A stretch of DNA of 64,000 nt, taken from contig NZ_SNVJ01000007.1 of assembly GCF_009829925.1 (NCBI RefSeq), positions 1 through 64,000 on the forward strand. Reading direction: 5' to 3'. The stretch is from Teichococcus coralli. Lineage in GTDB: Bacteria > Pseudomonadota > Alphaproteobacteria > Acetobacterales > Acetobacteraceae. The position numbers and the translations under genes were made by a program. Below, in pieces: positions 36,916-62,630 of the stretch. Position 1 is the stretch's first letter, and every line of letters starts with the position of its first letter. The notes under the pieces are model-generated. The model did not search any database, was not told the DNA's origin, and worked only from the letters and a program-made list of their open reading frames with translations.

Positions 36916-37521
36916 TCACCTATTTGGTTCTGAACGCTGTTCTGCCATCTGTTCGCGCAGGAGGCGAATTTCTGCTTTAAGCGCCGCAATCTCCTCGGCT
37001 TCGGCCGATTGCGGGGTTCCGGCGCCGCCTTCATCCCGCCGCGGAAACGGACTGAACAGCGACATGGCGCGTTCCATCATCGCCATGTTCTGCTTACTCA
37101 TCTCCTCCAGCCTGACCAGAGGATTGAAGTTCCCCATGGTTTGCTCGACCGAAACGCGCATTTGCTCCTGCTGGCGGGCGAAGCTGCCCATCGCGAACTC
37201 CAGATAGCGCGGCACCAGGGACTGCAGGCTGTCGCCATAGAAGCCGATCAACTGCCGCAGGAACGGAATGGGAAGCAGGTTCCGCCCCTTGGCCTCCTCC
37301 TCGACGATGATCTGCGTCAGCACGCTGCGCGTGATGTCATCACCCGACTTGGCGTCATAGACCACGAAGTTGCGGCCCTCGCGCACCATCCCGGCGAGAT
37401 CCTCGAGCGTCACATAGGATGAGGCTTCCGTGTTGTAGAGGCGCCGATTGGCATATTTTTTGATGACGACTGTGGGCTTCGGCTGTTCGTCCGTCTTTTT
37501 CTGTGCTGCCTGTTCGGTCAT
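36916..37521 (-). CDS. phaR: Polyhydroxyalkanoate synthesis regulator PhaR
   Basis: 201 residues. The N-terminal PHB/PHA accumulation regulator DNA-binding domain begins VVIKKYANRRLYNTEASSYV, followed by TLEDLAGMVREGRNFVVYDA. The middle PHB_acc region includes LPIPFLRQLIGFYGDSLQSLVPRYLE split over residues 82-107. The C-terminus is a short coiled coil (AEEIAALKAEIRLLREQMAE). PhaR senses polymer and represses phasin and PHA genes in relatives. It diverges from the PHA synthase-like genes. Confidence 0.95.
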   Translation of the reverse strand: MTEQAAQKKTDEQPKPTVVIKKYANRRLYNTEASSYVTLEDLAGMVREGRNFVVYDAKSGDDITRSVLTQIIVEEEAKGRNLLPIPFLRQLIGFYGDSLQSLVPRYLEFAMGSFARQQEQMRVSVEQTMGNFNPLVRLEEMSKQNMAMMERAMSLFSPFPRRDEGGAGTPQSAEAEEIAALKAEIRLLREQMAEQRSEPNR

Positions 37522-37679
37522 TGCGCCCTCCCGTCCCGCTTCGTGAGGAGGCGAGGCTAGCATGGCCTCACGGGCGGGAATATGCCGATGGCACCGCTGC
37601 CCTTTCCCTGCGCGGCGGCGGCGTTATGTTCCGCGCGGGCCGGCGACCTGGCCGTTGCGCGCGCATCACAGGGGATGGC

Positions 37680-38189
37680 ATGGCAGGGCCCGAGCAACCT
37701 TCCGCGACCGGTGCCGGCGACCCGCCCGGCGGATCCGAGGCACTGGAGCGGCTGGCGGAGGACTGGATCACACTGTGGCAGAGCGAGATCGCGGCGCTGG
37801 CGACGGACCGCGAGGTGGCCGAGGGCTGGTCCGCCTGGACGGCGCTGACAGCCGCATGGATGCGTGCCGCGGCCGCATCGCACCCGTTCCGCCCCGGCGG
37901 CTCCTGGGGAAGTTCCGCAGGCGCCGCGGCGGAGCCCCCGCGTGAGCCTCCCGCCTCGCCGCGGGCCACGCCCGCTGTTCCTGCACCTGGGCCTGGCCAT
38001 GGCGCGCGGCCTGGGGGCGGGCCTGACCCTGCCGCCGGATCACCCTCCCGGGAGCGACGGAGCGAAGACGCCGGCGCCCTGCTCGGCCGCATCGCCGAAC
38101 TGGAGCGCCGCCTGGCCGATCTCGAAGGCCGGGCGGCAGGAGCTGCAGCGGATCAACGGCGCCCTCGCCGCCGGCGGCCACCGGCCTGA
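37680..38189 (+). CDS. Small protein preceding the PhaC-like gene, possible synthase partner
   Basis: 169 residues. The N-terminal part (LERLAEDWITLWQSEIAALA) is helical and a Pro/Ala/Gly-rich linker follows. The C-terminus is a short coiled coil, LLGRIAELERRLADLEGRAA, and a basic tail. It lies between phaR and the PhaC-like gene. Its frame overlaps or abuts the synthase start, suggesting coupled expression. The layout recalls PhaE or phasin-like partners, but there is no clear homology; partner function is inference. Confidence 0.65.
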   Translation: MAGPEQPSATGAGDPPGGSEALERLAEDWITLWQSEIAALATDREVAEGWSAWTALTAAWMRAAAASHPFRPGGSWGSSAGAAAEPPREPPASPRATPAVPAPGPGHGARPGGGPDPAAGSPSRERRSEDAGALLGRIAELERRLADLEGRAAGAAADQRRPRRRRPPA

Positions 38190-38205
38190 GCAGTTCCGCG
38201 CCGCC

Positions 38206-39213
38206 GTGCTGCGCCGCCTGGCGCGGCAGGACCGGGCGCTGGTCGCCGGCATCGCCGCCTACCGCCGCCACCCCTGGCGGCGTCAGGAGCCCGACCTGCC
38301 GGTGCTCTGGCGCGAGGGCGGTTCCCGGCTGCTGGACTATGGCGGCGCCGGCCCGCCTTTGCTGGTGGTGCCCTCCCTGGTCAACCGCGCCTATGTGCTC
38401 GACCTGCTGCCGGAGCATTCCATGCTGCGCTGGTTCGCGGCGCAGGGCCACCGCGTGCTGCTGCTCGACTGGGGCTGGCCGGAGGAGGCGGAACGGGCCT
38501 TCACCCTCACCGACTACATCGCCGGGCGGCTGGAACGGGCGCTCGCCGCGCCTTCCCTCGCGCCGCTCGGGCCGGTGGCGCTGATGGGGTACTGCATGGG
38601 GGGACTGCTCGCCCTTGGCGCCGCGCTGCGCCGGCCGGAGCGGCTGCGGGGCCTGGCGCTGCTCGCCACGCCCTGGGACTTCCACGCCGGCGAGGCCGCG
38701 CCGGCCCGGGCGCTGGCCGCCCTGCTGCCCGGGCTGGAGCCGCTGATGCAAGCCGGCGATGTCCTGCCGGTGGACGTCATCCAGGCGCTCTTCGCCGCGC
38801 GCGATCCCTGGGGCATCGCCGCCAAGTTCCGCGCCTTCGCCGCCATGGAGGCCGACAGCCCCCGCGCCCGCCACTTCGTCGCGCTGGAGGACTGGCTGAA
38901 CGACGGCATCCCGCTCGCCGCCCCGGTGGCGCGGGAGGCGCTGGGCGGCTGGTATGGACGCAATGATCCGGGTCAGGGACGCTGGCGCGTCGCCGGGGCC
39001 GTCGTGGAGCCGGCCGCGCTCGCGGTTCCCGCCTTCGCCGCGGTGCCGCGGGCCGACCGCATCGTGCCGCCGGCCTCCGCCCTGGCCCTGGCAGAGCGTC
39101 TGCCCGGCGGCCATATCGAGATGGTTTCGGCCGGGCATATCGGCATGGCCGCGGGCAGCCGCGCGGAGGCGGCGCTGTGGCAGCCGCTCCGCCGCTGGCT
39201 GGCGGGCTTGTAG
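38206..39213 (+). CDS. PhaC-like polyhydroxyalkanoate synthase / alpha-beta hydrolase
   Basis: Alpha/beta-hydrolase with a PHA-synthase-like lipase box, GYCMGG, in which Cys (codon 38593) replaces Ser. The triad continues with Asp in VPRADRIVPP and His in VSAGHIGMA. Polymerises hydroxyacyl-CoA in PhaC relatives. Homology begins around QFRAAVLRRLARQDRALVAG, but no ATG precedes it closely. GTG 38206 (335 residues) is the conservative start. ATG 37999 would give 404 residues but overlap the previous gene by 190 bases in another frame. Its context between phaR and phaA supports the role; it is shorter than class I synthases. Confidence 0.75.
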   Translation: MLRRLARQDRALVAGIAAYRRHPWRRQEPDLPVLWREGGSRLLDYGGAGPPLLVVPSLVNRAYVLDLLPEHSMLRWFAAQGHRVLLLDWGWPEEAERAFTLTDYIAGRLERALAAPSLAPLGPVALMGYCMGGLLALGAALRRPERLRGLALLATPWDFHAGEAAPARALAALLPGLEPLMQAGDVLPVDVIQALFAARDPWGIAAKFRAFAAMEADSPRARHFVALEDWLNDGIPLAAPVAREALGGWYGRNDPGQGRWRVAGAVVEPAALAVPAFAAVPRADRIVPPASALALAERLPGGHIEMVSAGHIGMAAGSRAEAALWQPLRRWLAGL

Positions 39214-59739: not shown

Positions 59740-60312
59740 ATGCTGACTGTTGGCGACAAGTTCCCGGCGTTCAACCTGGCCGCCGTGAAGGGCGGCGCGG
59801 AGGGCCTGGAGGGCCCCGGCAAGTCCTTCATCCAGATCACCAACGAGTCCGACGCCGGCAAGTGGAAGGTCGTGTTCTTCTGGCCGAAGGACTTCACCTT
59901 CATCTGCCCGACCGAGATCGCCGCCTTCGGCAAGCTGAACACCGAGTTCGCCGACCGTGACGCGGTGCTCTATGGCGCCTCGACGGACAGCGAGTTCGTG
60001 CACCTGAACTGGCGCGTGCACAACAAGGACATCAACGACCTGCCGATCCCGATGCTCGCGGACACCAAGCGCGAGCTGTCCACCGCGCTCGGCATCCTCG
60101 ACAAGAACGAGGGCGTCGCGCTGCGCGCCACCTTCATCGTGGACCCCGAGGGCACCATCCAGTGGGCCTCGGTGAACGGGCTGAACGTCGGCCGCAACCC
60201 GCAGGAGGTGCTGCGCGTGCTGGACGCGCTGCAGACCGACGAGCTGTGCCCCTGCAACTGGAACAAGGGCACCGACACCCTGAACCCGGACGCGCTGTTC
60301 CAGGCCGCCTGA
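59740..60312 (+). CDS. ahpC: Alkyl hydroperoxide reductase / peroxiredoxin AhpC
   Basis: 190-residue typical 2-Cys peroxiredoxin. The peroxidatic Cys is C56 in FTFICPTE, and the resolving Cys is at 170 or 172 in DELCPCNW. The family segments VFFWPKDFTF and STDSEFVHLNWR are present. With AhpD as reductant it removes organic peroxides. It is the first gene of an OxyR-controlled pair. Confidence 0.95.
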   Translation: MLTVGDKFPAFNLAAVKGGAEGLEGPGKSFIQITNESDAGKWKVVFFWPKDFTFICPTEIAAFGKLNTEFADRDAVLYGASTDSEFVHLNWRVHNKDINDLPIPMLADTKRELSTALGILDKNEGVALRATFIVDPEGTIQWASVNGLNVGRNPQEVLRVLDALQTDELCPCNWNKGTDTLNPDALFQAA

Positions 60313-60456
60313 AGCCCGGCTGGCCGGCGGGGTTCGCTCCGCCGGCGGTTTCCCTGGCGACGCTGCGCCGAGCCGGCCCTCCGTGAACAGGTCCGCCTCC
60401 GCCCATCGCCCCCCCGAATCCGCATCACCCCAGAGAAGACCGGAGGATCCCTTCGC

Positions 60457-60987
60457 ATGTCGCTTGAAGCCCTGCGCGCCCGCCTGCCCGACTATGCCCG
60501 CGACCTGAAGCTGAACCTTGGCAGCCTGGCGACCGAGCCGGTGCTGAGCCAGCAGCAGCTCGCCGGCACCTTCGTGGCAAGCGCGATCGCCAGCCGCAAT
60601 GCCGAGGTCACCAAGGCGCTGGTGGCCGAGTTCGGCCCGAAGCTCTCCCCGGAGGCGCTGACGGCCGCCAAGGCCGCCGCGGCCATCATGGGGATGAACA
60701 ACGTCTACTACCGCTTCACCCACCTGGTGGGTGGCGACTACGGCAACATGCCGGCCAAGCTGCGCATGAACGTCATGGCCAGGCCGGGTGTCGAGAAGGT
60801 GGACTTTGAGCTGTGGTCCCTCGCCATTTCCGCCATCAACGGCTGCGGCATGTGCATGGAAAGCCACGAGAAGGTCGTGAAGCATGGCGGCCTGACCAGC
60901 GAGCAGGTGCAGGCGGCGGTGCGAATCGCCTCCGTCGTCCATGCCGTGGCCGGCGTGCTGGAGGCTGAGGACGCCCTCGCGGCCTGA
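60457..60987 (+). CDS. ahpD: Alkyl hydroperoxide reductase AhpD
   Basis: 176-residue AhpD/CMD-fold protein. The redox motif C130-G-M-C133, with E118 and H137 nearby, is in [17 protein letters not shown]. It recycles AhpC using lipoylated proteins in known systems, replacing AhpF. It follows ahpC by 144 bases; a perfect terminator follows after about 50 bases. Confidence 0.95.
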
Positions 60988-61039
60988 CCCGCCGGGCGGC
61001 GCCAGGCGCCGCCCTGTTCGCCTGCCCGGACTTCAAGCG

Positions 61040-61064
61040 GAAACCCCACCTTGCGTGGGGTTTC
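61040..61064. terminator. Terminator after ahpD
   Basis: A perfect 10-bp stem GAAACCCCAC / GTGGGGTTTC with a CTTGC loop. The TTTC at the 3' side gives only a short U-tract. Confidence 0.75.
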
Positions 61065-61161
61065 ATCATCGCCGGAAGGCCGCGCCTGTTTGTCATGCGT
61101 TCCGCGCATACGGACATGCTTCAGCTGCGGGCAGAATTCGTGTTGCACCGCGAAAAACCGC

Positions 61162-61188
61162 TTGCGTACGAACGACCACCCGCATATC
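61162..61188 (+). promoter_or_regulatory. Possible promoter of the small RNA
   Basis: TTGCGT (61162-61167) and CATATC (61183-61188) lie 15 bases apart. They loosely fit a housekeeping -35/-10 pair and would place the start near 61195-61200. Confidence 0.4.
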
Positions 61189-61196
61189 TTTCACCT

Positions 61197-61282
61197 CGCA
61201 GCCACGCAGTACGCTGCGTGACTGTCTTTCTTGGACGTTTCCTCCCTAAACTCGGCGGTGCTTCTGGCACCGCCTTTTTTTT
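61197..61282 (+). ncRNA. Candidate small regulatory RNA with exposed anti-Shine-Dalgarno motif
   Basis: About 85 bases in three parts. First is a 7-bp hairpin, CACGCAG-TACG-CTGCGTG (61203-61220). Next is an unpaired stretch, CTTTCTTGGACGTTTCCTCCCT (shown in two parts: CTTTCTTGGACG and TTTCCTCCCT), whose CCTCCC can pair with ribosome sites. Last is a perfect terminator, GGCGGTGC-TTCTG-GCACCGCC (61254-61274) with eight T. No open frame of note is present. The design resembles alphaproteobacterial CUCC-motif sRNAs; the family was not identified. The 5' end is approximate. Confidence 0.7.
61254..61282 (+). terminator. Rho-independent terminator of the candidate sRNA
   Basis: An 8-bp perfect stem with a 5-base loop, followed by TTTTTTTT on the plus strand. 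On the minus strand no T-tract follows, so it does not serve the converging amidohydrolase gene. Confidence 0.9.
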
Positions 61283-61315
61283 GCCCGCGGCCCGGCCTCG
61301 GCCGTTTTCCGGCGT

Positions 61316-62194
61316 TCAGCCGCGCAGGAAATCCCAATCCATCTCCATCAGCGCGGCGACCAGCGTGGCGAAATCGTGCTGCAGCTTGGCCATCCCGGGG
61401 AGCGGCTCGATCCGCGCCTCGTCCATGTAGAGCGCCCGGGCGGTTTCGATCTGCAGCACATGCACCGTTTCGCGCGGGCGGCCGTAATGGCGGGTCACGT
61501 AGCCGCCGGCGTAGGGGTCGTTGCGGCGAACCCGGTAGCCCATGGCCCAGAGCTGCTCCTCCACCCGCCGCACCGCCCGCGGGGCGCAGGCGGTGCCATG
61601 CGCGTCCCCCAGCACCATGTCGGGCGCGTTCTGCGCCTGCGTGGGGTGGGCGGGCATGGAGTGGCAGTCCAGCAGCAGGCAGCAGCCGAAGCGCTGCCTG
61701 GTTTCCGCGATCAGCTCGGCCAGGGCGGCATGGTAGGGCTGCCAGCAGCACCGCACCCGCTCCTCCGCCTCGCGGAAGGAGAGGCGGCGACGATAGATCG
61801 GCTCGCCGCTGGCCACCACGCGCGCGATGGTGCCGAGGCCGGCCCCCACCCGGGGGCTGGCGCTGTTCACCCAGGCCGGCAGCGGCTCGTCGAACATGGC
61901 CGGGTCCAGCTCCCAGGGCTCCCGGTTGGCGTCGCAGAAGGCGCGGGGGAAGTTGGCGGCCAGCAGCGGCGCGCCGAGCGCCGGCGCGGCGGCGAACAGC
62001 TCGTCCACGAAGCAATCCTCGGAGCGGCGCACCGCATGCGCGTCCAGGCGCGATTCCGCCAGGAAGGGCTCTGGGTAGTGCCGGCCGGAATGGGGCGAGG
62101 CGAAGACCAGCGGCGCGCGCTGCACGGCGGGGCGCGTCAACTGATACGGGCCGGGCGCGTCATGCCCGGCAAGGCGCGGCATCGGGAGATCCAT
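61316..62194 (-). CDS. N-formylglutamate amidohydrolase family protein
   Basis: 292 residues. The family opening FASPHSGRHYPEPFL and the metal-site segments RSEDCFVDELF, FPRAFCDANREPWELDP, LLLDCHSMPA and GYVTRHYGRP are clear. Members cleave N-formylglutamate from histidine breakdown, or related amides. No hut genes are adjacent. The start is ATG 62194 or GTG 62215; neither has a strong ribosome site. Confidence 0.92.
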   Translation of the reverse strand: MDLPMPRLAGHDAPGPYQLTRPAVQRAPLVFASPHSGRHYPEPFLAESRLDAHAVRRSEDCFVDELFAAAPALGAPLLAANFPRAFCDANREPWELDPAMFDEPLPAWVNSASPRVGAGLGTIARVVASGEPIYRRRLSFREAEERVRCCWQPYHAALAELIAETRQRFGCCLLLDCHSMPAHPTQAQNAPDMVLGDAHGTACAPRAVRRVEEQLWAMGYRVRRNDPYAGGYVTRHYGRPRETVHVLQIETARALYMDEARIEPLPGMAKLQHDFATLVAALMEMDWDFLRG

Positions 62195-62325
62195 GATTTG
62201 GAGAGATGAAGCCACAGTGTCTTTCTGATGTCACGACTCGGGCGGTGACAAAGCTTTTTCGTCCAGCCGCCGATCTGCTCTTGCCCTTGCCCGGAAGGCA
62301 CGATAGAGAGCCCGCCCGACCGGAT

Positions 62326-62400
62326 GGGCGCGTAGCTCAGCGGGAGAGCGTCCCCCTGACACGGGGAAGGTCACAGGTTCAATCCCTGTCGCGCCCACCA
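62326..62400 (+). tRNA. tRNA-Val (GAC)
   Basis: A 75-base cloverleaf. Acceptor GGGCGCG/CGCGCCC; D-stem GCTC/GAGC; anticodon stem TCCCC/GGGGA with loop CTGACAC, anticodon GAC at 62358-62360; T-stem ACAGG/CCTGT with TTCAATC. The CCA end is encoded (62398-62400). It reads the GUC and GUU valine codons. Confidence 0.97.
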
Positions 62401-62434
62401 TTCGGATCCACCCGCTCGCCGCTTGCCGATGCCC

Positions 62435-62454
62435 TGCCCCGTGCGGGGCTTCTT
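62435..62454 (+). terminator. Possible terminator after tRNA-Val
   Basis: GCCCC-GTGC-GGGGC followed by TTCTTG, about 35 bases after the tRNA. The stem is short (5 bp) but GC-rich. Confidence 0.5.
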
Positions 62455-62630
62455 GCGTTGTGCCGGCCTGTTCCCGAGGCGCTTCGGGGCGGCGGACAAG
62501 TTGCGCGGGCGCCGAGAGATTTGGAATAAACATATCCGCAACCCGCAAAGGGCTTGCCGGAAAGGTTGACCGCCCCTTCCCGCCGCTGCAAGGACAGCGG
62601 CGACAAGAGCATTCGGGGAAGTCGCCCATC

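Follow-up and report, generated by a model that had tools for sequence, protein, structure and literature searches.

Alpha-r8 small RNAs share a defining 10-mer and are usually encoded beside a gene for N-formylglutamate amidohydrolase (FGase); the accessible portion of PMC12559287 gives SisA of Caulobacter as an example and describes it as repressing its targets via the same core. MmgR of S. meliloti reduces PhaP1 and PhaP2 with their mRNAs unchanged, according to the available part of PMC8401924. PhaR (AniA) represses mmgR, whose promoter it binds by EMSA, and YGCRNYGCR is reported as the core of the PhaR motif of this species (available part of PMC12542648). Control of mmgR by AniA and NtrC is further stated to depend on a conserved dyad in the -35/-10 spacer (PMC8401924, as far as its accessible text goes), so the conservation of a PhaR-type site is at least partly known already.

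We analyzed a window of 64,000 nucleotides, the stretch of Teichococcus coralli DNA presented above, by scanning it in full against Rfam. Two matches exceeded their gathering scores: one tRNA and RF00519 (suhB/MmgR, 'Makes More Granules Regulator'). The latter matches positions 61217-61289 with 58.9 bits against a gathering score of 41 and covers the full model (1-77). The predicted transcript occupies 61197..61282 on the plus strand, with a putative 5' end. A preliminary description had seen here an alphaproteobacterial small RNA of the CUCC type with its own terminator and had proposed a covariance search as a check; that search makes the RNA a clear member of RF00519/alpha-r8. Since the 10-mer, the terminator and the FGase neighbor are all present, the RNA is, judging from its sequence, the FGase-linked alpha-r8 of this Acetobacteraceae genome, a newly placed member of the known MmgR/alpha-r8 family and not a new RNA class. 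Other Rfam small RNAs were rejected: in a loose-threshold scan of 600 bases, SorX, SorY and ncS025 (CUCC-type or similar) stayed below their gathering scores, with 21.7 of 46.6, 17.8 of 111 and 30.2 of 46 bits, respectively, and overlapped this RNA weakly at the terminator and the CCUCCC part.

The RNA is composed of a 5' stem-loop, an exposed segment and an intrinsic terminator. The stem-loop (61198..61225, plus strand) has 11 pairs and one mismatch, joining 61198-61201 with 61222-61225 and 61203-61209 with 61214-61220. The RF00519 model has a weak hairpin upstream of the 10-mer (GCCCUUCUUGGGC), to which GUCUUUCUUGGAC aligns here, but this hairpin does not form in the minimum free energy (MFE) fold, where part of it goes into the longer 5' stem. 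Between the stem-loop and the terminator lies the exposed segment CUUGGACG-UUUCCUCCCU. It contains CTTGGACG, read from the sequence at 61230-61237 (plus strand), followed at 61238..61247 (plus strand) by UUUCCUCCCU (listed also as TTTCCTCCCT), the anti-Shine-Dalgarno core, which matches the stretch that defines alpha-r8 in the accessible part of PMC12559287. In the MFE fold, the first 5' bases of this 10-mer, UCC, are weakly paired with GGA and the remainder is free. The terminator (61254..61282, plus strand) consists of a stem of nine pairs at 61254-61274 and a T8 run at 61275-61282, transcribed as U8. The hairpin, exposed segment and perfect terminator with eight T described previously are thus all present, in a unit that we count as 86 bases and not 85.

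The 86-base RNA folds at -35.3 kcal/mol, against -20.3 (sd 2.9) in dinucleotide shuffles (z -5.2; none of 200 shuffles as good). The terminator alone reaches z -5.9 in the shuffle test, and the 18-base 5' hairpin alone z -2.9, with 1 of 200 shuffles as good. A terminator scan of 60000-62500 found two terminator-like sites where 1.2 were expected from shuffles, so the count by itself says little and it is conservation that makes the case. A coding reading of the unit was rejected: several open reading frames overlap it, yet the genus alignment has 5-base indels in the 5' part, so no conserved frame is kept there.

Conservation across Acetobacteraceae, also proposed as a check in the preliminary description, proved extensive. 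RF00519 matches were found in 322 of 397 genomes of the family, 315 of them over the cut-off, including all 17 genomes of this genus. Class-wide, at least 214 of 385 genomes had a match and at least 164 were over the cut-off, in a search whose filters lose weak matches. Other Acetobacteraceae genomes carry up to nine RF00519 matches each, and one genome has a tandem pair of alpha-r8 copies about 270 bases apart (L016, G099:C4).

The 27-base stretch CUUUCUUGGACGUUUCCUCCCUAAACU (61226..61252, plus strand) is identical in 41 of the 43 FGase-type (type-A) copies, counted on all 43; L015 and L029 differ. For covariation, we used alignment A1, which holds 39 of the 43 type-A copies (L015, L021, L038 and L050 were left out). 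Because loci were oriented by the exact 10-mer, its invariance in A1 partly reflects how the loci were selected. Compensatory changes occurred in 10 of 20 consensus pairs, in 52 cells against 14.2 in shuffles, and 95.8% of cells were paired; the consensus structure for this count was drawn from A1 itself, which biases the count towards it. Both-side changes affected five of nine consensus pairs in helix 1, the 5' stem (91.7% of cells paired), and covariation affected five of eight in the terminator. Varying but compensated arms around a fixed pairing core read as the evolution of a working RNA.

We then considered the DNA between ahpD and the RNA, part of which is conserved in the genus as TGCASCGCGAAA, CTTGCR, a TATCTT- or TAAGTT-like box and CTCGCAGC. 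In this genome, the promoter-like block spans 61161..61190 on the plus strand, with CTTGCG at 61161-61166 and CATATC/TATCTT at 61183-61190, and is conserved in the 16-copy genus alignment. A sigma-70 consensus scan found no promoter upstream of the RNA, and we therefore infer the promoter status of this block. The first part of the conserved stretch, TGCASCGCGAAA, is YGCRNYGCR, the core of the S. meliloti PhaR motif; here the palindrome is TGCACCGCG at 61144..61152 (plus strand), just upstream of the -35-like box.

Palindromes of the form YGCRNYGCR were counted in the 100 bases upstream of RNA copies, and kinship among genomes inflates all these counts, as it does those of synteny. In the genus, the palindrome was present in 15 of 15 scored copies (shuffles: mean 2.4, maximum 6; control stretches, 9/30), and in 16 of 16 overall because the dropped copy L050 also carries it. 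In Acetobacteraceae outside the genus, it was found in all 26 scored copies, 20 of which have two or more (shuffles: mean 5.2, maximum 12; controls, 19/52); L021, a dropped copy, does not have it, which gives 26 of 27 overall. Class-wide, 65 of 85 scored copies (90 fetched) carried it, spread over 42 of 51 families (shuffles: mean 9.1, maximum 16; controls, 16/170), and 20 of the 85 did not. GC-rich DNA often yields the palindrome, as the 9/30 and 19/52 control stretches show.

Within Acetobacteraceae, palindromes cluster at two positions some 48 bases from each other. At the start site, the stricter B. diazoefficiens consensus TGCRNYGCASMA is matched in many relatives, for example by TGCATCGCAGCA; the site at 61144-61152 is not among the 31 sites of the window that match this consensus with up to one mismatch. 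The promoter of this RNA retains only the upstream palindrome; in the genus, the start-site copy that many relatives show has been half lost. As the remaining palindrome precedes the -35-like box, a simple block is a less obvious mode of repression.

The same genome carries a second alpha-r8 copy at C45:110612-110688, between a DUF1467 gene and proS, which scores 49.4 bits and is over the cut-off. This copy resembles the FGase-linked one in its core, UUUCCUCCCUAAACUC, and differs from it in its 5' hairpin (AGGAAGAG..CUCUUCCU), in its neighbors and in its upstream DNA, where only 8 of 15 scored genus copies have the palindrome. That a paralog with the same core so often goes without argues that the palindrome is not a by-product of composition. 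In the genus (L002:1487-1577; L053-L064), the perfect 5' hairpin of the second copy, AGGAAGAGA..TCTCTTCCT, hardly varies. Its AGGAA strand could also pair with UUCCU of the core, which makes a self-masking switch conceivable.

A candidate regulator of the RNA is encoded in the same window. The phaR (aniA) gene, at 36916..37563 on the minus strand, matches PF07879 with 106.9 bits and PF05233 with 62.9 bits, and is the sole PF07879 match in the genome. Beside it lie a thiolase gene and a gene for a weakly PhaC-like hydrolase (37864-39213), which has a weak PhaC_N match (23.2 bits; cut-off, 23.7) together with Abhydrolase_1 and would be related to PHB synthase, either as a divergent form or as a non-synthase protein. 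Palindromes also precede phasin genes: two or more are found in the 260 bases before the start at 18 of 18 main phasin loci of the genus, and one or more at 4 of 10 more distant phasin-like loci. In the 397 Acetobacteraceae genomes, alpha-r8 and PhaR occur together in 308 and are both missing from 73, with the RNA alone in 14 and PhaR alone in 2. This co-occurrence is suggestive only, because losses are shared by descent. The listed members of the 73 are mostly small genomes and may be acetic acid bacteria.

It is unlikely, in our judgment, that the palindrome of alpha-r8 is bound by another regulator, such as the nitrogen regulator NtrC, with PHB uninvolved here. NtrC is reported as an activator of mmgR in S. 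meliloti (accessible parts of PMC7143759 and PMC8401924), and the palindrome is kept at the best copy in 12 of the 14 genomes that have alpha-r8 and no PhaR match, for which assembly gaps or another regulator may account. Several of these 14 are fragmented or incomplete assemblies, so they do not form a clean test of operator loss. The palindrome nevertheless matches the published PhaR core as well as the paired phasin-gene sites of the same genomes, and the distribution of the RNA across the family largely follows that of PhaR, both of which speak against another regulator. Two genomes with no PhaR match, those of L232 (G009) and L021 (G190), lack the palindrome in their alpha-r8 promoters, as would follow from decay of the site once PhaR is lost.

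We turn to the genes around the RNA. Downstream, as stated in the preliminary description, a gene converges on it: FGase, the usual alpha-r8 neighbor, at 61316..62215 on the minus strand (PF05013, 266.1 bits). Upstream on the plus strand are ahpC (59740..60312, PF00578) and ahpD (60457..60987, PF02627), the latter adjoining the RNA only in this genus in the family comparison. FGase and AhpD are both near the RNA in 16 of 17 genus genomes; in the seventeenth, a likely copy of the RNA is cut by a contig end (L073). In five genus loci (L040, L044-L046 and L049), FGase and the RNA are separated by an insertion and lie about 600-700 bases farther apart. Among 28 named records (Roseomonas, Pseudoroseomonas, Falsiroseomonas and others) chosen by an exact 39-base core, FGase is near the RNA in 26 and AhpD in 12, and the best FGase identity is that of Roseomonas sp. 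E05, at 92% (L096). Outside the genus, FGase was found at 21 of 27 Acetobacteraceae loci and at 66 of 90 class-wide loci, and AhpC or AhpD at 0 of 27 and 0 of 90. These zeros indicate that the position of the RNA after ahpCD is a local accident of this genus, as far as the compared loci tell.

The preliminary description had suggested an oxidative-stress link from the position after ahpCD, and we rejected this link on synteny. A small RNA controlled by OxyR, responding to peroxide and functionally part of ahpCD, would agree with the adjacency of ahpD in the genus and in the 12 named records; we nonetheless rate it as very improbable, because that adjacency vanishes in the family and the class and because ahpCD is flanked, on the side away from the RNA, by a regulator gene of its own. 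With a crude search for OxyR boxes, neither the RNA promoter nor the ahpC promoter yielded a site, so this search gives no evidence either way. A tie to carbon storage is likelier for the RNA than one to oxidative stress, since its promoter sites resemble those of the PHB regulator.

The chance is similarly slight that the RNA lacks a promoter of its own and is a 3' fragment of the ahpCD transcript or a secondary terminator, the latter being the case that the preliminary description had named as its refutation: the hairpin after ahpD (61040-61064; perfect, 10 bp), there called the ahpD terminator, has no long T-run and was not listed by the terminator scan, so that read-through is possible, and the sigma-70 scan was likewise negative, but the RNA is present without ahpCD upstream at all 27 Acetobacteraceae loci from outside the genus, and the DNA between ahpD and the RNA holds a promoter-like block conserved in 16 genus copies.

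Family membership, synteny, covariation, conserved palindromes and the presence of phaR, phasin and hfq genes are observed. With good confidence, we propose that the locus encodes an FGase-linked alpha-r8 RNA with its own promoter and terminator, whose core would block ribosome sites and whose transcription is most likely controlled by PhaR; from the observed features we infer the transcription start, the binding of PhaR and Hfq, the targets and the direction of effect. Transcription of the RNA would start at a promoter of its own, in the interval between ahpD and FGase, and end at its own terminator. PhaR, as a PHB-sensing repressor, would repress both the RNA and the phasin genes, and PHB granules would titrate PhaR, so that phasin mRNA and the RNA would rise together. 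Probably working with Hfq, the RNA is predicted to pair through its exposed UUUCCUCCCU with ribosome-binding sites and to lower translation, trimming that of phasin and perhaps of uptake proteins.

Candidate targets were sought as GGGAGGRAA followed by a start codon, a pattern that occurs at 21 places in the genome; the backward pattern occurs at 4. Thirteen open frames of 80 amino acids or more were scanned and 8 shorter ones dropped, and for a control pattern with 25 places, 16 were scanned and 9 dropped. Solute-binding proteins made up 5 of the 13 candidate targets and 3 of the 16 controls (p 0.41), which is no enrichment of a target class, and several of the 13 candidate starts seem to lie inside genes, to judge from partial profile matches (L255 and L265 are examples). 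The core can pair, at -20.0 kcal/mol, with the phasin start site GGGAGGGAAUUUGCGAUG (L271); this ranks among the weaker of the 21 sites, and the complementarity recurs only in the closest relative.

On balance, we lean towards PhaR control of alpha-r8 being an ancient, class-wide circuit, in which one repressor, titrated by PHB, governs the phasin genes together with the small RNA trimming them. It would extend over Acetobacteraceae, rhizobia and most of the alphaproteobacterial families sampled, with an operator of shifting position: in the -35/-10 spacer, at the start site or, for the RNA described here, farther upstream than the -35 box. In a literature search that was incomplete for the likeliest sources, we came across no description of alpha-r8 from Roseomonas-type bacteria and none of class-wide PhaR sites, and the class-wide extension of PhaR-mmgR control appears to be only partly anticipated. 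An unannotated RNA is now in a named family, and a tempting oxidative-stress story gives way to a testable one, in which a storage-polymer sensor would control a general RNA against ribosome sites. Should PhaR sites prove ancestral to the promoters of alpha-r8, the S. meliloti results could carry over to most Alphaproteobacteria, and the proposed circuit bears on a long-standing question, the role of MmgR-type RNAs outside rhizobia and Caulobacter.

Compared with the described systems, this RNA shares with MmgR of S. meliloti the Rfam family, the 10-mer core, the terminator and a PhaR-type promoter palindrome (accessible parts of PMC12542648 and PMC7143759). It differs in its longer, stable 5' stem-loop and in the place of the palindrome, which lies upstream of the -35-like box here and 13 bases from the start in S. 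meliloti mmgR. This genome also has a second paralog, whereas MmgR is described as the sole copy in S. meliloti in the available part of PMC12559287. For sisA-D of C. crescentus, the same portion of that source reports no shared upstream motif, in contrast to the palindromes found here. With SisA-D, the RNA has in common the UUUCCUCCCU core, the FGase neighbor of SisA and the occurrence of several paralogs per genome. SisA-D act against ribosome sites, according to the same accessible text, and the same action is predicted for the RNA described here.
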